This document shows positions 2,503 to 32,333 of a DNA stretch of 32,333 nt, piece after piece. Position 1 is the stretch's first letter; every line of letters begins with the position of its first letter. A model generated the notes under the pieces. It had not been told where the DNA came from. It saw only the letters and a list, made by a program, of their open reading frames with translations, and did no database searches. Made by a program: the position numbers and the translations under genes. The stretch comes from a virus. Where the stretch lies: positions 1 through 32,333 of IMG/VR virus record IMGVR_UViG_3300032174_000018. The stretch is one strand, 5' to 3'.

Positions 2503-2693
2503 TCTTTCACTGCACCGCGCCAATGGAGTACAGATGCGCTCCTTATAGCATCCACTGGACTACGCGCGGTTGGGAACTTTGGAACATGACAAGAAAGCAC
2601 AGAGCTTGCTTGGGGCGTGAACTGTCGATGAGCCAGGCAATTGCGCTTGCTGAGCAGGATGAGCGAAATGCGCTACAAGCTCCGCAAGGATGA
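2499..2693 (+). CDS. Small early phage protein, unknown function
   Basis: A 64-residue frame from a GTG at 2499, preceded by AGGA at a good distance. It begins MIFHCTAPMEYRC, contains SIHWTTRGWELWN, and ends with SMSQAIALAEQDERNALQ. The tail, a short helix with ALAEQDE, is familiar from small phage early proteins, but I cannot name a family. Three cysteines and several aromatic residues suggest a compact fold. It overlaps the start of the nuclease gene by 26 bases. Confidence 0.5.
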   Translation: MIFHCTAPMEYRCAPYSIHWTTRGWELWNMTRKHRACLGRELSMSQAIALAEQDERNALQAPQG

Positions 2694-2985
2694 GCGCCAC
2701 GGGCAAATTATGGCTGAACTTCAAGATTGCGGCTTTTCTGTTGCTGATCTTAGTCGCGTCGGGTCCGGTTTTCCTGATCTGGCGATTGCACGCAACAATG
2801 TCTGCGCTCTGGTCGAGATTAAGACCCCAAGGGGGCGTAAAACCGCATTAGAGCGTCGTGGGCCGGCGCAAATAGAATTCGCAAGGGTGTGGAAGGGGCC
2901 TATCATCGTGGCGTATAACGCCTCCCAAATCGTTTACGACTTCAATCTGTTGATCAAGCGCCGAGAGGCCTACGCAGTAACGTAA
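2668..2985 (+). CDS. VRR-NUC-like nuclease
   Basis: A 105-residue protein from the ATG at 2668, which has AGGA eight bases upstream; an ATG at 2659 would add three residues. It carries the PD-(D/E)XK signature: GFPDLAI (D37), then VEIKTP (E50, K52) and a later glutamine in the helix following ERRGPAQIEF. This is the VRR-NUC or Holliday-resolvase-like fold found as a stand-alone small domain in phages. The likely role is structure-specific DNA cleavage during replication or recombination; substrate cannot be deduced. Its place between replication genes and the late regulator fits. Confidence 0.75.
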   Translation: MRYKLRKDERHGQIMAELQDCGFSVADLSRVGSGFPDLAIARNNVCALVEIKTPRGRKTALERRGPAQIEFARVWKGPIIVAYNASQIVYDFNLLIKRREAYAVT

Positions 2986-7798: not shown

Positions 7799-9167
7799 CT
7801 GCCCCATCGGTGAGATATTCTTTGGTGGCGCTCGAGGTGGCGGGAAGACAGACGGGGTATTGGGCAAGTTTGCTCTGAAGGCTCGTCGGTACGGTAAGGC
7901 TTTCAATGCGGTGTTCTTCCGCAAGGAGATGCCACAGCAGGACGATTTAGTTGAGCGGGCCAAGGAGATTTACTGTCCCTTAGGCGCTAAGTGGCGTGAG
8001 CAGCACAAGATGTTCAACATGCCACAAGGTGGGCGTGTCCGTTTCAGGCCCCTTGAGAGCATTCAGGATGCTGAGAAGTACCAAGGGCAGAGCATCAGTG
8101 ATGCAGCGGTTGAGGAAGCTGGAAACTATCCTATGCCTGCGCCTATTGATCGATTGAATGGTGTGCTGCGCAGTGCCAAGGGTGTTCCGACACAGCTTAT
8201 CCTGACCGGTAATCCGGGTGGACCTGGGCAGGGATGGATTAAGGATCGGTACATTGATCCATCGCCATTGGGACTAAAGATACTGGAACGTAAGCTTCCG
8301 AATGGGTCGATACATCGGTATGTGTTCATCCCGTCTAAGCTTCAGAACAACCTGATTCTCTTACGTAATGACCCAGGCTACTTAGATCGTCTCTACCTGG
8401 TCGGTTCCCCGCAGCTCGTGAGGGCATGGCTGGAGGGCGATTGGAACGCGATTGAAGGGGCATTCTTCCCTGAGTTCTCGACTGAGAAACACGTGGTTAC
8501 CCCAAGAGAGCTGCCGGCTCATTGGGTGCGCTTTAGGGCAATGGACTGGGGATCAGCTAAACCCTTTTCGGTCGGTTGGTATGCGGTATCGGAAGGCGAT
8601 GGGGATTTCCCTCGCAATGCCATCATCAAGTACCGTGAATGGTATGGATCAACAGGTCAACCAAATGTGGGACTTAAACTCACTGCTGAAGAAGTTGCAT
8701 TAGGAATTGTTTCCCGTGAAACCAAAGGTGAATGCAAGTACGGGGTGATTGATCCTGCGGCCTATACGGCTGATGGCGGCCCTTCGATTGCCGAGAGAAT
8801 GGCTAAGGCTGGGGCGATGTTCTATCGGGCGGATAACAAGCGGGTGGCTCAGGCAGGGGCTATTGGCGGCTGGGATCAACTCAGGGCTCGATTGAAGGGC
8901 GAGGAGAAGCCGATGATCTACTTCTTCTCGACCTGTAAGGACACCATTCGTACCTTACCTATGCTTCAGCACGATCGGGTAAAGGCTGAGGATGTGGACT
9001 CGGACGGTGAGGACCATGCGGCGGATGAAACCCGCTATGCCTGCATGTCTAGGCCTTATATGTCCCGCAAGGCGACGACTAAAGAGCCCAGGTTCCTAGA
9101 CCAAATGACCGCGGATGAGATGTTCTGGCCGAAAGATCGCAACAAGGTACGACAGGAGAGGATTTAA
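7731..9167 (+). CDS. terL: Terminase large subunit
   Basis: A 478-residue protein from the ATG at 7731 (GTG at 7686 would add 15 residues). The ATPase domain has Walker A GGARGGGKT (residues 32-40), a Walker B region ISDAAVEEAG ending near E128/E129, and the coupling motif LILTGNPGG (157-165). The C-terminal RNase H-like nuclease has candidate metal ligands at MDWG (D272), VIDPAAY (D341) and GEDHAADE (D428/D432). It pumps DNA into the prohead through the portal and cuts concatemers. The start was chosen because homologues I recall begin shortly before the WRPQxGPQ block; neither start has a good ribosome site, consistent with coupling to the small subunit. Confidence 0.95.
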   Translation: MNGQPARRIIWRPQAGPQKLLIDCPIGEIFFGGARGGGKTDGVLGKFALKARRYGKAFNAVFFRKEMPQQDDLVERAKEIYCPLGAKWREQHKMFNMPQGGRVRFRPLESIQDAEKYQGQSISDAAVEEAGNYPMPAPIDRLNGVLRSAKGVPTQLILTGNPGGPGQGWIKDRYIDPSPLGLKILERKLPNGSIHRYVFIPSKLQNNLILLRNDPGYLDRLYLVGSPQLVRAWLEGDWNAIEGAFFPEFSTEKHVVTPRELPAHWVRFRAMDWGSAKPFSVGWYAVSEGDGDFPRNAIIKYREWYGSTGQPNVGLKLTAEEVALGIVSRETKGECKYGVIDPAAYTADGGPSIAERMAKAGAMFYRADNKRVAQAGAIGGWDQLRARLKGEEKPMIYFFSTCKDTIRTLPMLQHDRVKAEDVDSDGEDHAADETRYACMSRPYMSRKATTKEPRFLDQMTADEMFWPKDRNKVRQERI

Positions 9168-9168
9168 G

Positions 9169-9522
9169 ATGGGTATTGGTAATGTTGAAATTGGCATTCC
9201 AGTTAATCTAACGAGCAGTGGTGTGGTGGCTGGCGGAACTGCCATGGCTCGTACCTATCCAGGTGGTGGGAATGATCCCGGAAGCCAAGCCGAAACGACT
9301 TCCATTGAAGGTGTTATGTTGGGATTTTTCCTAAACAGTCACTCCTCTGGGACTTTAGCTCTTGCTACCAACAATGGAGGTTCTGCTGGAACAGCTATCG
9401 GCGGCACAATTACTTTTGTCGCTGGTGCCAATGGATGGTTTGCGCTTCCAATAGCTAGTCCAGGCGGCATTTTTGCAACTATCGGTGGGACTGCGAATAT
9501 TACGTTTGTAGTAGTAAAATAA
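9169..9522 (+). CDS. Small Gly/Ala/Thr-rich virion protein
   Basis: A 117-residue protein, MGIGNVEIGIPVNLTSSG..., preceded by AGGAGAGGA. It is almost free of charge and made of alternating small and hydrophobic residues (TITFVAGANGWFALP, TANITFVVVK), indicating a beta-sandwich. Inserted between the large terminase and the portal, it is likely a head decoration or accessory protein. No specific family recognised. Confidence 0.5.
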   Translation: MGIGNVEIGIPVNLTSSGVVAGGTAMARTYPGGGNDPGSQAETTSIEGVMLGFFLNSHSSGTLALATNNGGSAGTAIGGTITFVAGANGWFALPIASPGGIFATIGGTANITFVVVK

Positions 9523-9525
9523 CTA

Positions 9526-12189
9526 ATGACCATCGAACTAGCCACGCCAACGGTGGCTTTCTGGAAGAACGAGATTCAGCTCTACGAGCGCACAGCGGAT
9601 AAGTGGCTGAAGCGTGGTCGGAAGATCATGAAGCGCTACAAGGATGTGCGATCGCCACGAGAAGATGCGGTCACTCGTCTTAATATCCTATGGTCGAACG
9701 TGCAGACCAGAATGCCGGCTCTTTATGCACGGGATCCCAAGCCTGAGTGTGAGCGGCGCTTCAAGGACAAAGACCCGGTAGGGCGTCAGGTAGCCGAGGT
9801 TTTAGAGCGGTGCTTGGACTATACGATTCAGTGCACCAATCCTTTTGGCGCAATCCTTCGTCAGGCTGTGCTTGATTATGAGCTTCCCGGCAGAGCTACG
9901 GTGTGGGTGCGCTATGTGCCGCACTTTCATAAGCCTGAACTCATCAATGAGTCGGATCCTAATGCCGATGAGCGTACCGAAGGTGAGGAAGTCACCAATG
10001 ACGCTGAAGATGAGGTAGATGAGCAGCGCATCAAGTACGAGGAAACCCTGCTTGATTATGTGTACTGGGAGGACTTCGGCCATACCTGGGCAAGGACCTG
10101 GGAGGAAGTCCGGGCAGTCTGGCGAATCGTCTATCTGACCCGTGAGGAAGGCGTAAAGCGCTTTGGCAAGGAGTTCAATGATGTACCCTTAGACTGGCAG
10201 CCCAAGACCTTGAAGGACGCCCAGGTCAAGCAGGACAACCGGGAGCAGAAGAAAGCCATCATCTACGAGATTTGGGACAAGCAGGAACACCAAGTCATCT
10301 GGCTTTGCAAGAATCATCCTAGAACGCTCGATGAGAAGGAAGATCCATTAGGCCTGGAGAACTTCTTTCCCTGCCCGCCGCCGATGTTTGCGAACCTTAC
10401 CTCTGAGGAACTAGTTCCGACACCCAATTTCACTTTCTATCAAGATCAGGCCAATGAGATAGACGAACTCTCGAGCCGTATTACCGCGATCGGCAAAGCT
10501 CTCAAAGTCGCCGGCGTGCGGGATAGTTCTGCTGAAGGGCTTGATCGGTTGCTATCCGAGGGTACGGAAAATGCTCTAGTGCCGGTGGACGGGTGGATAG
10601 CGCTCAAGGAGAAGGGCGGGCTGGCTGGTGTGATGGAGCTTCTGCCCTTAAAGGAGATTGCGGAGGCTTTAGGATTCTTGCGCGAACAGCGCCAGATGAT
10701 GATTGATGATGTGTACCAGATCACGGGACTCTCTGACATCATCCGCGGGCTATCGGAACCGAATGAAACGGCCACCGCCCAGCAGATCAAGGGTCAGTTT
10801 GCGGTATTGCGCATTTCAGACTCGCAGCGCGAGGTGCAGCGCTTTTGCCGGGACATCATCCGCATCATGGCCGAGGTCATTGCGGACTATGATATCGAGA
10901 CGATCAAGAAGATTTCGGGTGTCAAGTTACTCACCCAAGCCGAGAAGCAGGCGATCAATGGACAAATTGCTGCCGCACAAAATCCTATGCCCACGATGCC
11001 AGGAGGTTTACCTGGAAGTGCAGGGTCCCCATCTGGTCCCGGAGCATCGGGTGCTGCGCAGTCACCAGGGGCGGGCCCCGGAAATGCTCCCATGCCTTCC
11101 CAAGCCGGTCCCGCTCCTCAACCGCAGGGAAGTGCTGGAAGCCCATCTCCCCCGGCGCCCGGTGCTTCGCCCGGAATAGACCTAACGCTTCTTAAAGAGC
11201 CGAGCTGGGAAGAGGTTGCGGCCTTACTTGAAAACCCTGTCCTTCGGGAATTTCGTATCGATGTGGAGACCGACTCCACCATACGGCTCGATGAGGATAA
11301 TGAACGCGAAGCTAGGATGAATTTCATCGAGGCCGTATCCAAACTGATAGGAGAGGCCTCGAACGTACCGCAGATGATGATTCCGGCTGCTGGGGAACTC
11401 ATCATGTTCGGTATTCGGGGCTTTAAGGTGGCCAGAAGCTTAGAGAGGGTGTTTGAGGATGCGATCGATAAGCTCTCGAAAGCCCCGCCTAAGCCTGATC
11501 CTGAGATGCTGAAAGAGCAGGCGAAGGCTCAAGCTACCCAACAAGCCGCTCAGATCAAAGCGCAGGCAGATATTCAGATCGCCCAGGCCCAGCAGCAAGC
11601 GCAAGCCCAGGAAGATAGGCTAAGAACTCAGTTCGAAGCGCAGCGAAACCAGCAGGACATGGCAGCCAAGGCCCAGCATGAGCAAGCGCTCGCTGAAATC
11701 AACAATCGGTTCGAGGCTGAGAAGGCGCAGTTCGAGGAAGCGGCCAAGGAGAAGATTGCGGCGGCTAAGAATGCGACCGATATTCAGATTGCGAAGATGC
11801 AGCACGATCATGAGAAGGCGTTGGATGGTGCTAAACAGGCCCACGAGCAGAAAATCACGCAGATGACTCAAGATCACGAAGGCCGCATGGCACAGCACGA
11901 AAGGGAGACCCAAGTTGGCGTCGAATCCTTGAAGGCCGACAAGGCTAAGGAAATCGAGGGCGTCAAGGGCAAGCAGGCCAAAGAGATTGAGGGTGTACGG
12001 GGTGAGAACGCCGAGAAAGTCGCGAAGCTTAAACCCCAAGTGAAGGCTGAGGCTAAATCGAACGGTAAGGCCAAGGAACAGGAGCCAACGGTAAAGGCTA
12101 TATCAGAGCTCACCGCGGCCTTAAAAGAGGCCAGAAAGCCTCGTAAGGTCGTCAGGGATGAGAAAGGCCAGATAGCGGGGATCCAGTGA
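9526..12189 (+). CDS. Portal protein
   Basis: An 887-residue protein from the ATG at 9526. The N-terminal 480 residues are the conserved portal body (RLNILWSNVQTRMPALYARD; later YQITGLSDIIRG and the ATAQQIKGQF helix), which I recall from large P22-size podophage portals. Residues about 482-552 are a Pro/Gly/Ser-rich linker, followed by the conserved block WEEVAALLENP...FRIDVETDSTIR. From about residue 658 to 830 the chain is a long Gln/Ala/Lys/Glu coiled coil with a repeated KEIEGVKG/KEIEGVRG, comparable with the helical barrel of the P22 portal. Twelve copies form the DNA gate and connect head and tail. It is followed by a one-base overlap with the next gene. Confidence 0.9.
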   Translation: MTIELATPTVAFWKNEIQLYERTADKWLKRGRKIMKRYKDVRSPREDAVTRLNILWSNVQTRMPALYARDPKPECERRFKDKDPVGRQVAEVLERCLDYTIQCTNPFGAILRQAVLDYELPGRATVWVRYVPHFHKPELINESDPNADERTEGEEVTNDAEDEVDEQRIKYEETLLDYVYWEDFGHTWARTWEEVRAVWRIVYLTREEGVKRFGKEFNDVPLDWQPKTLKDAQVKQDNREQKKAIIYEIWDKQEHQVIWLCKNHPRTLDEKEDPLGLENFFPCPPPMFANLTSEELVPTPNFTFYQDQANEIDELSSRITAIGKALKVAGVRDSSAEGLDRLLSEGTENALVPVDGWIALKEKGGLAGVMELLPLKEIAEALGFLREQRQMMIDDVYQITGLSDIIRGLSEPNETATAQQIKGQFAVLRISDSQREVQRFCRDIIRIMAEVIADYDIETIKKISGVKLLTQAEKQAINGQIAAAQNPMPTMPGGLPGSAGSPSGPGASGAAQSPGAGPGNAPMPSQAGPAPQPQGSAGSPSPPAPGASPGIDLTLLKEPSWEEVAALLENPVLREFRIDVETDSTIRLDEDNEREARMNFIEAVSKLIGEASNVPQMMIPAAGELIMFGIRGFKVARSLERVFEDAIDKLSKAPPKPDPEMLKEQAKAQATQQAAQIKAQADIQIAQAQQQAQAQEDRLRTQFEAQRNQQDMAAKAQHEQALAEINNRFEAEKAQFEEAAKEKIAAAKNATDIQIAKMQHDHEKALDGAKQAHEQKITQMTQDHEGRMAQHERETQVGVESLKADKAKEIEGVKGKQAKEIEGVRGENAEKVAKLKPQVKAEAKSNGKAKEQEPTVKAISELTAALKEARKPRKVVRDEKGQIAGIQ

Positions 12190-15576: not shown

Positions 15577-15790
15577 ATGGCACTCGTAGGTCCGTCAACC
15601 GCGTTGACGGAAATCGTAACGACCACGCTCAGGAACCGCACCGGTAAACTGGCGGATAACGTTACAAAAAATAATGCGCTGCTCTATCGGTTGCGCGCAA
15701 AAGGGAAGGTAAAACCGGTAAGTGGTGGACGCACAATTGTCCAAGAGCTGAATTATCAGGAGAACGGGACTTTCAAACGGTACTCTGGGT
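15577..15790 (+). CDS. Major capsid protein, exon 1
   Basis: First exon of the coat gene, from the ATG at 15577 with AGGAG upstream, to T15790. It encodes MALVGPSTALTEIVTTTL through NGTFKRYSG plus the first base of a tyrosine codon. Joined to exon 2 at 16634 it gives 984 bases and a 327-residue protein reading FKRYSGYEALNISPSDVF, the expected coat sequence without gap or shift. Without splicing the frame runs only 13 codons further and stops at 15820-15822, leaving 81 residues. The split gene is therefore not a pseudogene. Confidence 0.9.
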
Positions 15791-15801
15791 TGATGTCTAC
15801 T

Positions 15802-16404
15802 TCAGCCCTCCTTGCTGCCTAATCCTGCAAGGAAAAGCGGTCTATCAACATAGGCCATTTTCCACAAGTTGCAGGTACGGCAGAGTGTTTGAGCGTTAGA
15901 GCGCACATTCACTCCGCCGCATGAAACAGGAATGATGTGATCGAGGATCAGATCCTCAAGTGTTTTACACCATAGACAAGCCGAGTCTTTCCACTCGCGG
16001 CGTTGTAAAGGCGTGAAGTTGCGGCGATAGCGCTGTTCTTCACGAGGTTTTATAGATCGTAGGTGCTCAAGATTTTTGAGCATTTCAGCACGGTTATTGA
16101 GCCATCTTTCACGCAATGCGATGGTGATTTTAGCTTTGGCTTCTGGGGTGTGTTTGTAGCCCTTTGGTGGGCCAGTTCCTTTAGGTGGACTGGCTCTACG
16201 ACCGGCGCGGATGCGAACGCGAGTTTCCTCATCGTGAATCTTTCCCCAAAATGGATTGTGTTCGCCTTGAAATGATTTGCTTTTGCACTCAGAGGCTCCG
16301 CACGTAATCCGCTTGTGCCCTCGCAAGAGATAAGCAGCGGTTTTATAGACGAGTTTTCCGCAAACTACGCACGCGATTTCATGACCTGTTTTATGGTTTG
16401 GCAT
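15802..16404 (-). CDS. HNH homing endonuclease, antisense within the intron
   Basis: A 200-residue minus-strand protein from the ATG at 16404. The N-terminus has CVVCGK and TCGASECK, a four-cysteine zinc knuckle. The middle (EAKAKITIALRERW) is a NUMOD-like helical stretch, a DNA-reading element. The C-terminus has CLWCK, then the HNH core ILDHIIPVSCGGVNVRSNAQ and TLCRTCNLW, with structural cysteines. It would cut intronless copies of the capsid gene to promote intron homing. It is unusual in lying opposite to the intron and host gene. Its stop codon (15804-15802) falls inside the P1/P10 guide strand. No good ribosome site is visible, but an antisense promoter lies upstream. Confidence 0.88.
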   Translation of the reverse strand: MPNHKTGHEIACVVCGKLVYKTAAYLLRGHKRITCGASECKSKSFQGEHNPFWGKIHDEETRVRIRAGRRASPPKGTGPPKGYKHTPEAKAKITIALRERWLNNRAEMLKNLEHLRSIKPREEQRYRRNFTPLQRREWKDSACLWCKTLEDLILDHIIPVSCGGVNVRSNAQTLCRTCNLWKMAYVDRPLFLAGLGSKEG

Positions 16405-16439
16405 AAGGCTAACATGGGGTTAATTCGGTGGACAACTCC

Positions 16440-16467
16440 TTTATACGCTTTTGGTAGAAGGAGTCAA
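16440..16467 (-). promoter_or_regulatory. Antisense promoter for the HNH gene, inside the ribozyme core
   Basis: On the minus strand TTGACT (16467-16462) and TATAAA (16445-16440) are separated by 16 bases, a good sigma-70 match. The predicted start near 16433 gives a leader of about 30 bases before the HNH ATG. The elements sit in the P5 stem and loop of the intron, so one DNA segment serves as a ribozyme helix on one strand and a promoter on the other. Confidence 0.55.
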
Positions 16468-16633
16468 TACCGAGCCAATCCACAGACCTAAAATGCTGTG
16501 GCCGGTGTAACGACTAGGGCGTGACGAAAGAATAATCGCCCCACGAATGCCCCACCCGAAAGGGAAGATATAGTCTGAACTGCATGGTGACATGCAGATG
16601 CGAGGGATAAAGAGCCCACGCGATAACAATTTG

Positions 16634-17403
16634 ATGAAGCACTTAACATCAGTCCTTCCGATGTCTTCACGGGAGCTGAGTTCAACTACGCGCAGGCTGC
16701 GGTTGCAGTCTCTATCTCAGGCTTGGAGATGCTGCAAAACTCAGGTGAGAATGCGATCATCGATTTGCTCGAAGGTCGCATCGAGAATGCGGAGCAGACG
16801 CTCACCAACAACATTGCCCTGGATACTTACTCCAACGGCACGGCTGATGGTGGACGGCAGATCGGTGGAATTCAGCTGCTGATTGGCACCACGAATAACA
16901 GTGGTGTGATCGGCGGCATCGATTCCTCGATTTGGAGCTTCTGGCGCAATGTTGCGTTCTCAGGTGTCACCAATGGTGGTGGCGCCACGAGTACGGCGAA
17001 CATCCAGAGCTATATGAACCGGGTGTACCTGCAGCTTGTCCGAGGAGCTGATGCACCGGACTTGATTGTGGCGGATAATAACTACTATCGCTTCTATCTT
17101 GAATCCTTGCAGGCGATTCAGCGTATTACCTCGGATGAGATGGCCGAAGTCGGCTTTCAGTCCTTGAAGTACATGAACGCCGATGTGGTTCTCGATGGTG
17201 GCTTTGGTGGTGGAGCGCCCGCCTCTACGATGTACTTCTTGAACACCAAGTACATTTTCTTCAGGCCTCATGCCGATCGGAACTTCGCTCCGTTGGGTGA
17301 TGAGCGGTTTGCGGTGAATCAGGACGCGATGGTGAAGCTCATCGGCTTTGCAGGAAACCTTACATTGAGCAACCGCTTCTTGCAGGGGGTCCTGTCGGCG
17401 TAA
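16634..17403 (+). CDS. Major capsid protein, exon 2
   Basis: Second exon, starting with AT that completes the tyrosine codon, then EALNISPSDVFTGAEFN... through the stop at 17401-17403. It carries the core of the coat fold: AAVAVSISGLEMLQNSGE, IIDLLEGRIENAE, then the beta-rich domains and the C-terminal LSNRFLQGVLSA. The frame is closed by TAA at 16624 just upstream, so translation can only enter through splicing; a TTG at 16723 would make a fragment without the conserved region and is not credible. Many copies form the icosahedral head with the scaffold at 14534 and the decoration-like protein at 17420. Confidence 0.9.
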
Positions 17404-17419
17404 GCCACAGGGATACAAT

Positions 17420-18073
17420 ATGGCTAAAATTTCATTCGCAAGTCCGCAGGTTAACGCTGCGGTGACCTATAACTGGAGTGCCTTCACTCCTCTGATTGGG
17501 GATTTGGATATCGGGGTGGTCTCGACCGATGCGCCGGGTGTAGGACCGGGATCGGGTATCAATACCATCACGACTTCCATTGCTCCGCGTCCCATCTTCC
17601 AACCTTGCTTGGGCCAGATTGTGGCCGGTTGGGAGCCGACGTTGGGATATGGTGAGTTCATCTATCTTGCTGTGCCGACTTCTACCGCGGTTCCATTAGG
17701 AACGCTGGTGACCTGGTTTACCGGGTCGCTCGCTAACTATACGGTCGCGGTGATGCCGACCACGGCGAAGGGTGGTGAGCCTGGAGCGGTATGCATCTCC
17801 AACACCTCCGGTACGACAGGGGGTATCACGAGCAATGCGAACTCCATTCAATACGCCTGGTTCCAACTGGTGGGTATCGCGCAGACTCTAAAGACTGCCG
17901 TTATTCACACCTTGAATGGTCGTGTATTCGTCTCCGGTACTGCCGGGCGGGTCATGGTCACCTCGGCGGTTGGAACGGCACTGATTGGTGCGCGTTTTGC
18001 CTCATCCAACAGTGCAACGATTAGTTGTGCGTTGGTGTGGTATGACCGCCCCAATAAGATTACGGCCATCTAA
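17420..18073 (+). CDS. Capsid-associated beta-rich protein (decoration or head fibre)
   Basis: A 217-residue protein starting MAKISFASPQVNAAVTYNWS, with a weak GGAT site upstream of the ATG at 17420. It is low in charge and rich in Thr, Gly, Val and Ala, with beta-type segments (LGTLVTWFTGSLANYTVAVM, GRVMVTSAVGTALIG). Position immediately after the coat gene is usual for decoration or head-fibre proteins. Its stop overlaps the start of the sugar-enzyme fusion by one base, so the two are likely made together. Confidence 0.55.
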   Translation: MAKISFASPQVNAAVTYNWSAFTPLIGDLDIGVVSTDAPGVGPGSGINTITTSIAPRPIFQPCLGQIVAGWEPTLGYGEFIYLAVPTSTAVPLGTLVTWFTGSLANYTVAVMPTTAKGGEPGAVCISNTSGTTGGITSNANSIQYAWFQLVGIAQTLKTAVIHTLNGRVFVSGTAGRVMVTSAVGTALIGARFASSNSATISCALVWYDRPNKITAI

Positions 18074-20010
18074 TGCTCAATATCTGCTGCCTCTGCGTCG
18101 ATGCCCGTCATTACATGGATGGACGGGCCGTGGAGGCGGTGGAGATTTTGTATTCGATGATACGGCGCAATCTACCCGCAGGGCTTCGGGGACGCTTCAC
18201 GGTGTTCACGGACAACCCTGCGGATTTCAAAGATATGGCGGGAGTTCAGGCGAAACTTCTACCGGAAGGTTTGGAAGGCTGGTGGAACAAGATCTATTTG
18301 TTCAGCGAACACGCTTTCCCGAAAGGTGAGCGGGTACTCTATTTCGATTTAGACACGGTAATAACCGGTCCCTTGGACGATATTGCCGCTTATTCTGGTC
18401 CTTTTGCAATCCTTCGAGACGTGTATCGACCGGACGGACTTCAGTCCTCCGTGATGGCGTGGGAGGCTGGGACTTTAACTGATTTGTGGGCTGGGTTCGT
18501 TCAGGCTGGGTATCCTGAACTCGAAGGCGGTGATCAAGCTTGGATCGAACAGTTCCAAGAGCCAGACATTTGGCAAAAGCTCTATCCAGGGCTTCTCCGC
18601 TCCTACAAGGTGGACTGTCAGCAGTTCGTGCCGAAAGGCACTTCAGTCGTATTCTTCCATGGTTTTCCACGGCCTCATCAGTGCTTTAACTGGGTGAAGG
18701 ATGTGTGGAAGGTCTCGAATGAAACCATGTTCTTTGCCATGAACACCAAGGAGGATGAGGTAAGGCGCAACATCCGTCATGCCCTTACCAAGCCTAAGTG
18801 GATCGAGATGCGCGATGGAACGCCTCATAGCGCAATCATTGTCGGCGGTGGTCCATCTCTCGAAGATGATATCTGGCGCATCAAGGGCTGGCAGCTTTCA
18901 GGCTCCGTCGTCTTTGCGACGAACAACACCTTTGAGTTCCTGCTAGAAAGAGGTGTTACACCTGATGCGCATGTGATGCACGATGCACGAGAGGCGAATT
19001 TAAGCTTCGTGCCTAAGATTAAGACGATTTGCTATTACGCCTCGCAGTGCCATCCTGAAATCTTGGATGCCGCGGGCGAGAGATTGGTTTGCTGGCATCC
19101 TCACAGTGAGACCTGTCTTGATGAGATCGGGAATAATGCCAAAGGCCCTACGATGGTCTCAGGCGGGTCAACGGCTGGGCTTAATGCCATTTCCTTGGCC
19201 TACATCTTGGGCCATCGTCAGTTCCTCCTATTCGGTTTTGACTCATCCTACGAGGATGAACATCATGCCTACCCGCAAAGCTTAAATGACGGGGAACTAG
19301 TATTAGACGTTCAGGCACATGGCAAGAATTTTAAATGTGCCCCGTGGATGATTCAGCAGAGCGAGCAGTTCTTAAGTCTGGCGAAACAGCTCACGACTTT
19401 AGGGTGTGAGTTGACCGTCTACGGACGGGGGTTGATCCCTACCTTAGCGCAGCACATTGAACCGACTTCTTGTGCGGCTGATTTGCGGGCTAAAAGCTTG
19501 CTCACCTGGCTTGAGGGTATGGATAATCCTGTGGGTGCGGAGATAGGGGTGTTCGCCGGCGAGCTTTCAAGGCGTCTTTTAAGCCGTGCGGACCTCACTT
19601 TATATCTGGTGGATTCATGGTCTGCGAGTCCTTCGAAAAGCTATGCTGAATCCGGAGATTTTCATTCAAAACTCACCCAAGATCAGCAAGAGCGTTACTT
19701 TCGCATGACGCATCACATGATCTATTTCGCAGGCCCCAGGGCGAAGATTTTGCGAAAAGACTCTAAAGAGGCCGCGAAGGATATTCCAGATGCCTCACTT
19801 GATTTCGTCTTCATCGATGCCGATCACTCCTATGAAGGATGTAAGGCCGATATTGAAGCTTGGAAGCCAAAGATCAAAAAGGGCGGCTTTATCTCAGGCC
19901 ATGACTATGAGAATACGGAGTTTCCATGCTGGGGCGTGAAGAAGGCCGTACAGGAAGCTTTTGGTAAACCTGAATTGGGCGATAACTACACGTGGAAGGT
20001 CAACTTATGA
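18073..20010 (+). CDS. Trifunctional fusion: glycosyltransferase, MptE-like domain, methyltransferase
   Basis: A 645-residue protein with three domains. Residues 1-225: GT-A glycosyltransferase fold, with RVLYFDLDTVITGPLDD (DxD at 92-94), GGDQAW (152-157) and FFHGFPRPH (194-202). Residues 250-465: MptE/DUF115-like domain, AIIVGGGPSLEDDI (254-267), VFATNNTFEFLLERG, DAHVMHD and LLFGFDSSYEDEHH (385-398); relatives of this domain occur in flagellin glycosylation (Maf-type) and pterin enzymes. Residues 480-640: class I SAM methyltransferase, GAEIGVFAGELS (488-499), LVDSW (512-516), FVFIDADHSYEG (578-589). Together they suggest transfer and methylation of a sugar. Location directly after coat and decoration genes points to virion glycosylation, but host surface modification is equally possible. 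The substrate is unknown. Confidence 0.75.
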   Translation: MLNICCLCVDARHYMDGRAVEAVEILYSMIRRNLPAGLRGRFTVFTDNPADFKDMAGVQAKLLPEGLEGWWNKIYLFSEHAFPKGERVLYFDLDTVITGPLDDIAAYSGPFAILRDVYRPDGLQSSVMAWEAGTLTDLWAGFVQAGYPELEGGDQAWIEQFQEPDIWQKLYPGLLRSYKVDCQQFVPKGTSVVFFHGFPRPHQCFNWVKDVWKVSNETMFFAMNTKEDEVRRNIRHALTKPKWIEMRDGTPHSAIIVGGGPSLEDDIWRIKGWQLSGSVVFATNNTFEFLLERGVTPDAHVMHDAREANLSFVPKIKTICYYASQCHPEILDAAGERLVCWHPHSETCLDEIGNNAKGPTMVSGGSTAGLNAISLAYILGHRQFLLFGFDSSYEDEHHAYPQSLNDGELVLDVQAHGKNFKCAPWMIQQSEQFLSLAKQLTTLGCELTVYGRGLIPTLAQHIEPTSCAADLRAKSLLTWLEGMDNPVGAEIGVFAGELSRRLLSRADLTLYLVDSWSASPSKSYAESGDFHSKLTQDQQERYFRMTHHMIYFAGPRAKILRKDSKEAAKDIPDASLDFVFIDADHSYEGCKADIEAWKPKIKKGGFISGHDYENTEFPCWGVKKAVQEAFGKPELGDNYTWKVNL

Positions 20011-31606: not shown

Positions 31607-32113
31607 TTAGTGGGGTTTGTTTTTACGTGAGTTACTGCGATTAAATGCTTGTTCTCTATAGGTGGCCCACCGAACATTTCCTGGTTCGTATCCTCTATCA
31701 TTATCAATGCGTTCGAGGGTGAGATGTGGATGAGGTTTTTTCCCGATATGTGCAATAAATGCGCCGAAATCCTTTCGCCATTCTTTGCACATAGCGATTC
31801 CTCTGGCTCCATATCGATGGAAGTTGTGACGTCTAGAATCGGTACAGCGCCTTTTTGCATTATTCCATGCCTGATATTCAGAAGACTGACGTTGCTTTGT
31901 GTATCCGTGAGTGACACGGCCCTTGCGATTTTTGTATTGCTGACATCCGCAACTCTTTGTATGTCCGCATCGCAAAGTATTTCCAGACCACAGACCTTTA
32001 GTGCCGCATGAGCAAACGCAAAACCAGAGTTGAAATCCGTGCGGAGATTTATGGGCCTTCTTTAGGACTGTTAAATCTCCATACTTTTCTCCGATCAAAT
32101 CGAGAGATGTCAT
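31607..32113 (-). CDS. AP2/HNH-like endonuclease or DNA-binding protein, free-standing
   Basis: A 168-residue minus-strand protein from the ATG at 32113 (an ATG at 32125 would add four residues). Residues 1-70 hold a cysteine-rich knuckle (CVCSCGTKGLWSG, LRCGHTKSCGC). The C-terminal part has EYQAWNNAKRRC, YGARGIAMCKEW and TLERIDNDRGYEPGNVRWAT, a pattern I recall from phage-encoded HNH/AP2-like mobile endonucleases. The endonuclease call is by family likeness; the usual HNH histidine pair is not obvious. It faces the lysis genes from the other strand and starts two bases inside the holin-like gene. Confidence 0.65.
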   Translation of the reverse strand: MTSLDLIGEKYGDLTVLKKAHKSPHGFQLWFCVCSCGTKGLWSGNTLRCGHTKSCGCQQYKNRKGRVTHGYTKQRQSSEYQAWNNAKRRCTDSRRHNFHRYGARGIAMCKEWRKDFGAFIAHIGKKPHPHLTLERIDNDRGYEPGNVRWATYREQAFNRSNSRKNKPH

Positions 32114-32333
32114 GATGAAATCCATACAAACTTTTTTCCATAATCACGCTACCAAAGTTATTGGATTTTGTACAGCAGCCATCGGAGCCTTGGCGCTCCT
32201 TGATCACGAGACCTTAGATCTGATCGGGCAGGTATTCGGACCTAAAGGCGGTCCTATCGTTACGCGCGGAATCTTAATTATTTCAGGGCTCGCCACGGCG
32301 TATCGTGGCTATGAAAATTCACAACCAAAGGCA
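32112..32333 (+). CDS. Holin-like membrane protein (partial, cut by right edge)
   Basis: From the ATG pair at 32112/32115 the frame is open to the window end, giving 74 residues: MMKSIQTFFHNHATKVIGFC.... Two hydrophobic segments are present, VIGFCTAAIGALALL (about residues 16-30) and GILIISGLATAYRG (about 53-66). Small phage holin-type proteins I recall share the order of short basic start, FFxxHATKxIG, helix, spacer, helix, YRG. It would release the M15 endolysin at 31249. The ATG overlaps the start of the opposing endonuclease gene at the CATG. Confidence 0.6.
   Translation, partial: MMKSIQTFFHNHATKVIGFCTAAIGALALLDHETLDLIGQVFGPKGGPIVTRGILIISGLATAYRGYENSQPKA

Follow-up and report, generated by a model that had tools for sequence, protein, structure and literature searches.

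The major capsid gene of the virus IMGVR_UViG_3300032174_000018 is interrupted by an intron which, judged from its sequence and covariation, is a group I ribozyme predicted to excise itself from the capsid pre-mRNA, and which carries on its opposite strand a homing-endonuclease gene (HEG) of the HNH type. The window (i.e., the whole stretch of DNA that was analysed) comprises all 32,333 nucleotides of the record. Comparison with relatives indicates that this antisense layout is an old, selectively maintained arrangement. The explanation that is strongly favoured for the whole is that of a mobile group I intron of the capsid gene, with an antisense NUMOD3-HNH HEG that has its own promoter in P5 and that homes into intronless alleles. 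What is probably new, on the sequence comparisons presented here, is the depth to which the antisense orientation has been conserved, together with the probable promoter inside the ribozyme.

The plus strand of this IMG/VR virus record carries genes for terminase, portal and major head proteins. There, the major capsid gene comprises a 5′ exon (15577–15790), a group I intron of 843 nucleotides (15791–16633), and a 3′ exon (16634–17403; phrog_9953, 1.9e-98). The extent of the intron follows from the match to RF00028 on the plus strand (54 bits, against a curated cut-off of 50; E 3e-11), from the spliced reading frame, and from relatives. Joining U15790 to A16634 yields an uninterrupted capsid protein (...FKRYSG-Y-EALNISPSD...), which is collinear with intronless capsid proteins; the codon split by the intron is that of the tyrosine (T/AT). 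The end rules of group I introns are obeyed: the 5′ exon ends in a U that pairs with a G of the guide, and the last nucleotide of the intron is G. Downstream of the capsid gene lies a gene for a 645-aa protein (18073–20010, plus strand), which by eye resembles a fusion of a glycosyltransferase-like and a methyltransferase-like part.

At the 5′ end of the intron, P1 (15787–15793/15802–15808) contains the splice-site pair U15790·G15805 and the pairing of exon GGGU with the guide GCCC (15805–15808), a guide that varies with the exon in relatives. P1 is followed by the P2 hairpin TCCTTGC/GCAAGGA (15809–15815/15827–15833), the two forming neighbouring hairpins in the fold of 15784–15836 (z −5.25). 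The catalytic core, P3 to P9 (16415–16597), was folded as a consensus of 8 members, with P3 at 16415–16420/16549–16554 and P7, seen as GACTA/TAGTC, at 16512–16516/16571–16575. In the alignment of eight lineages, 33 of the 55 core pairs have compensatory (two-sided) changes, and these cover P3, P4, P5, P6, P8, and P9. In the frame of the 5′ exon, a TAA stop codon (15819–15821) lies in the loop of P2, 10 codons into the intron; in all relatives with a readable junction, the capsid frame meets a stop at most 10 codons past the 5′ splice site.

The HEG is read from the minus strand, from the ATG at 16404 to the TGA ending at 15802, and encodes 200 amino acids. The sequence-only reading of this DNA had placed it opposite both its own intron and the capsid gene, in the P2–P3 region, and this holds in every particular: the coordinates are exact, the open reading frame, Pfam and RF00028 agree, P1 and P2 fold as hairpins, and P3 starts at 16415. 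The HEG occupies the P2–P3 gap: 10 nt separate its start from P3, and its stop codon overlaps the 3′ strand of P1. Three Pfam families match the protein above their cut-offs (NUMOD3, 1.3e-10; HNH_5, 3.9e-9; HNH, 5e-7). The NUMOD3 DNA-binding motif comprises residues 42–65 (16210–16281, minus strand), and the HNH domain (CxxC...DH...N...CxxCN) comprises residues 143–190 (15835–15978, minus strand), of which the catalytic and zinc residues C143, C146, D155, H156, N170, C175, C178, N179, and K182 are invariant in 10 members. The AlphaFold model of the protein has low overall confidence (pLDDT 72, pTM 0.41), so only the match of its HNH domain was used. The closest solved relative of that domain is an HNH nicking endonuclease from Geobacter metallireducens (PDB 4h9d), by sequence (E 1e-9) and as the top Foldseek match, which spans only about 64 residues; this nuclease is not known to be intron-encoded. 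The same phage has a second HNH gene (31607–32125, minus strand; phrog_374, E 1.5e-53), which lies amid plus-strand phage genes and has no Rfam intron around it.

Relatives of the HEG were gathered from viral contigs, searched with proteins and with patterns, and from one genome contig. Between lineages, pS is 0.64–0.88 (i.e., synonymous sites are saturated) and pN is 0.26–0.43; the differences are concentrated at third codon positions, and the proteins of the relatives have retained 43–61% identity despite the saturated synonymous change. A decaying frame in relatives, which would have spoken against the sequence-only reading, is not what these values and the invariant catalytic residues describe. 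Judged from this pattern of substitution, the antisense frame greatly exceeds chance expectation and the HEG is under strong purifying selection for the function of its protein.

The sequence-only reading had also proposed a search for other phage introns with minus-strand HNH genes, and such relatives do exist. The HEG lies opposite the same capsid gene in all 19 of the lineages in which both genes were found, with relatives down to about 30% identity, and no family member with a HEG in sense orientation was found among the relatives searched. The HEGs of the family are placed between capsid exons by tblastn, and in 14 of the 19 lineages Rfam also detects the ribozyme on the capsid strand. 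The P7 signature is present in L012 and L373; the weakest members are L449, L450, and L452, which are without an Rfam match and have a P7-like signature of another type. Searching phage and plasmid records with the HEG by tblastn gave partial HNH matches only. In the search for intron cores, P7 was made a second requirement besides the 14-base pattern CAATACCGAGCCAA, because the pattern alone pulls in chance matches. A first survey of 127 intron cores revealed Pfam HEG families frequently in sense ORFs, the single antisense match lying outside its intron; an antisense HNH gene near an intron core in L043 was rejected, as a tRNA gene lies between the two. The congruence of the HEG and capsid trees (r 0.14) was spoiled by truncated domain matches.

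Several of the relatives have features of their own. The antisense HEG frames of L001 (4001–4684) and L002 (2623–3306) meet no stop codon within the intron; they continue across P1 and past the 5′ splice site and enter the strand opposite capsid exon 1. The capsid region of L001 resembles a hot spot for homing genes, with two more HNH-like genes in sense direction after the capsid gene (2082–2855 and 844–1572). The capsid insertion of L337 (1147 nt) seems to carry, at 2640–2905 (minus strand) and 5′ of its antisense HEG, one more P7 signature of group I type, ACGACTgagcg...GACAGTC, which is unrecognised by Rfam; perhaps this insertion is a twin-ribozyme. The capsid genes of L438 and L445 are apparently split by several introns (tblastn pieces at residues 10–44, 45–67, 70–124, and 118–318 in L438, and at residues 3–29, 28–68, and 70–327 in L445), and each of the two has more than one Rfam intron match.

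Occupancy of the insertion site is sporadic, which fits a mobile intron spread by homing, as far as can be read from these sequences. A profile of exon 2 found 80 capsid relatives, 79 of them informative at the intron site, and in 78 of the 79 the site is empty, the nearest empty one being 83% amino-acid identical; the sole intron-bearing relative is L373, again with an antisense HNH gene. The site is empty in L357 (74% nt identical), and the annotated Bradyrhizobium phage ppBjS10J-1 has an uninterrupted capsid gene. Alleles with and without the intron are both seen at the same site, as in an optional intron. Two points of insertion, separated by nine nucleotides, are in use: RYSG-Y/ in IMGVR_UViG_3300032174_000018, L001, L012, L338, and L337, and R-Y/ in L003, L274, and L373 (where the slash marks the insertion). 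The automatic choice of splice sites was unreliable at the upstream insertion site, and the junctions of L003, L274, and L373 were set by hand. On inspection of the sequences, the guide tracks the site (GCCC for GGGU, GCCUC for GAGGU, GCCGC for GCGGU), L003 being less clear.

Consensus matching makes it likely that the HEG is driven by a minus-strand sigma-70-like promoter in the P5 stem-loop. The −35-like element TTGACT (16462–16467, minus strand) lies opposite the P5 3′ strand and J5/4; the −10-like element TATAAA (16440–16445, minus strand) lies opposite the P5 5′ strand and L5, with a 16-nt spacer between the two and 35 nt from there to the ATG. This site scores 10/12 against a sigma-70-like consensus. 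In all nine loci first examined (eight lineages), the top −35/−10 pair of the 450 nt that precede the HEG start is at the same spot in P5; across the eight lineages, the P5 promoter-like sites lie 35–71 nt upstream of the HEG start and have TTGACT or a variant as their −35 element. Since the −35 element shares positions with sequence that is conserved in the ribozyme, it served as the anchor of a test in which 87 other phage introns were the controls: at the anchored P5 site, 11/14 introns of the family score at least 9/12, against 4.6% among the controls. The members of the family are related, so the promoter p values are optimistic, both for the −10 element alone (family against the 87 control introns, p 1.5e-5) and for the 100 nt upstream of the start (11/19 in the family against 3/190 same-strand control windows; p 0.003 for members outside the discovery set alone, shuffle-based combined p 3e-4). 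Family members have a longer P4–P5 segment between their P4 strands (median 34 against 16.5 nt; p 5e-6, optimistic for the same reason). A stock promoter scan returned 0 sites because it demanded T at position 6 of the −10 element, and a plain 12-position score was used in its place. The P5 promoter-like sites of L438, L439, and L445 are weak, and L447–L452 would need another promoter site. Extended −10-like sites are seen between the core and the HEG start in L449 (TGGTAGAAT) and L452 (TGCTATACT).

Antisense HEGs are established in the Didymium nuclear rDNA introns Dir.S956-2 and Dsq.L2066 (PMC9548176, PMC3679873). The statement in the sequence-only reading that such genes come from eukaryotic nuclear introns is correct as to these cases; as a restriction it fails, because there is a phage precedent in the capsid intron of mycobacteriophage LittleE (JF937101), for which splicing was demonstrated by RT-PCR and in which the homing-type gene gp14 lies on the opposite strand, at 9064–9597 (Pope 2013, PMC3706429). 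The Didymium introns differ from the present one in being nuclear rDNA introns, with a His-Cys nuclease, the HEG in P9, and spliceosomal introns within the HEG. LittleE is likewise a phage with a group I intron in the major capsid gene and an antisense homing-type gene. However, gp14, although annotated as HNH, is LAGLIDADG_3-like by Pfam, has no similarity to the HEG described here, and finds a full-length match in LittleE itself only; its gene lies 3′ of the core, whereas the HEG of the intron at 15791–16633 is of another type and lies between P2 and P3. Thus, the two antisense arrangements look independent. The T4 td intron with I-TevI and the SPO1 intron with I-HmuI likewise combine a group I ribozyme with an HNH or GIY-YIG nuclease, but in these the nuclease gene is in the sense direction. 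I-TevI has its own promoter within its intron. The hidden HNH insertions of the ShiLan type (PMC11855218) are not equivalent, as they are on the sense strand and non-intron. No discussion of antisense intron HEGs was found in reviews of bacterial and phage introns.

Under the favoured explanation, the plus-strand ribozyme would excise itself from the capsid pre-mRNA, and on mRNA that is still unspliced the early in-frame stop would halt ribosomes ahead of the HEG region and the core. The HEG would be transcribed leftward from the predicted sigma-70-like promoter that lies within the P5 stem-loop. In a mixed infection, its protein, to judge from its family and the distribution of the intron, may cut or nick capsid alleles that lack the intron, at the RYSGY codons or close to them, and repair would then copy the intron into the cut allele. 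Were the HEG in sense orientation, its translation would compete with folding of the same RNA, a conflict that the antisense layout may avoid by keeping translation of the HEG off the RNA that needs the ribozyme fold; the nuclease could also be made without, and possibly ahead of, late capsid transcription. The sequence-only reading had held that the arrangement frees expression of the HEG from capsid transcription, and the promoter-like element inside P5 argues, by inference, on its side. We lean, by a narrow measure, towards seeing here a family in which a single stretch of DNA does three jobs, with the ribozyme core on one strand and the HEG plus a bacterial-type promoter in P5 on the other; P5 would have been lengthened for the −35/−10 spacing, and nuclease expression thereby uncoupled from the late capsid operon.

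The orientation could also be a historical accident without functional meaning, an HNH gene having once entered the intron backwards. This is a serious contender, if the less probable one: all members are homologous, such that the orientation may have been fixed once, and the unrelated antisense LAGLIDADG gene of LittleE sits 3′ of its core. Against it, the orientation has been kept in 19/19 lineages, together with the lengthened P5 and the promoter-like site. Such an accident is compatible with a working mobile intron. It is rather unlikely that the HEG lacks its own promoter and is reached by read-through minus-strand transcription only, or is hardly expressed, like segD of T4, which lies between genes 23 and 24, opposite capsid genes (PMC2988022). 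The empty standard scan and the absence of a Shine-Dalgarno sequence before the HEG start of IMGVR_UViG_3300032174_000018 would agree with that; but the strong purifying selection on the protein, the recurrence of the promoter-like site at one position across the family, and the Shine-Dalgarno-like GGAGG or GAGG preceding the HEG start in L003, L274, and L373 do not.

That the HEG and an antisense transcript regulate capsid expression, e.g. by masking the intron or the capsid pre-mRNA, is improbable. An mRNA of the HEG would be able to pair with P1, with the guide and with the 5′ splice site, and in L001 the frame extends even further, opposite exon 1; however, constraint at the level of the protein explains the conservation by itself. 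Least probable is a free-standing or defective HNH gene unrelated to homing: HNH genes are frequent in phages, and the second one of this phage is outside the intron, but the HEG lies inside an intron that is found in one site region of the capsid gene only and with sporadic occupancy.

What the family shows is that the antisense placement of a homing gene within a phage intron is no peculiarity of LittleE, but a stable arrangement that has lasted through large sequence divergence. The predicted embedded promoter suggests a concrete route for the expression of an antisense homing gene, and makes it testable how intron nucleases may escape the conflict between translation and ribozyme folding, and whether homing may precede transcription of the host gene.
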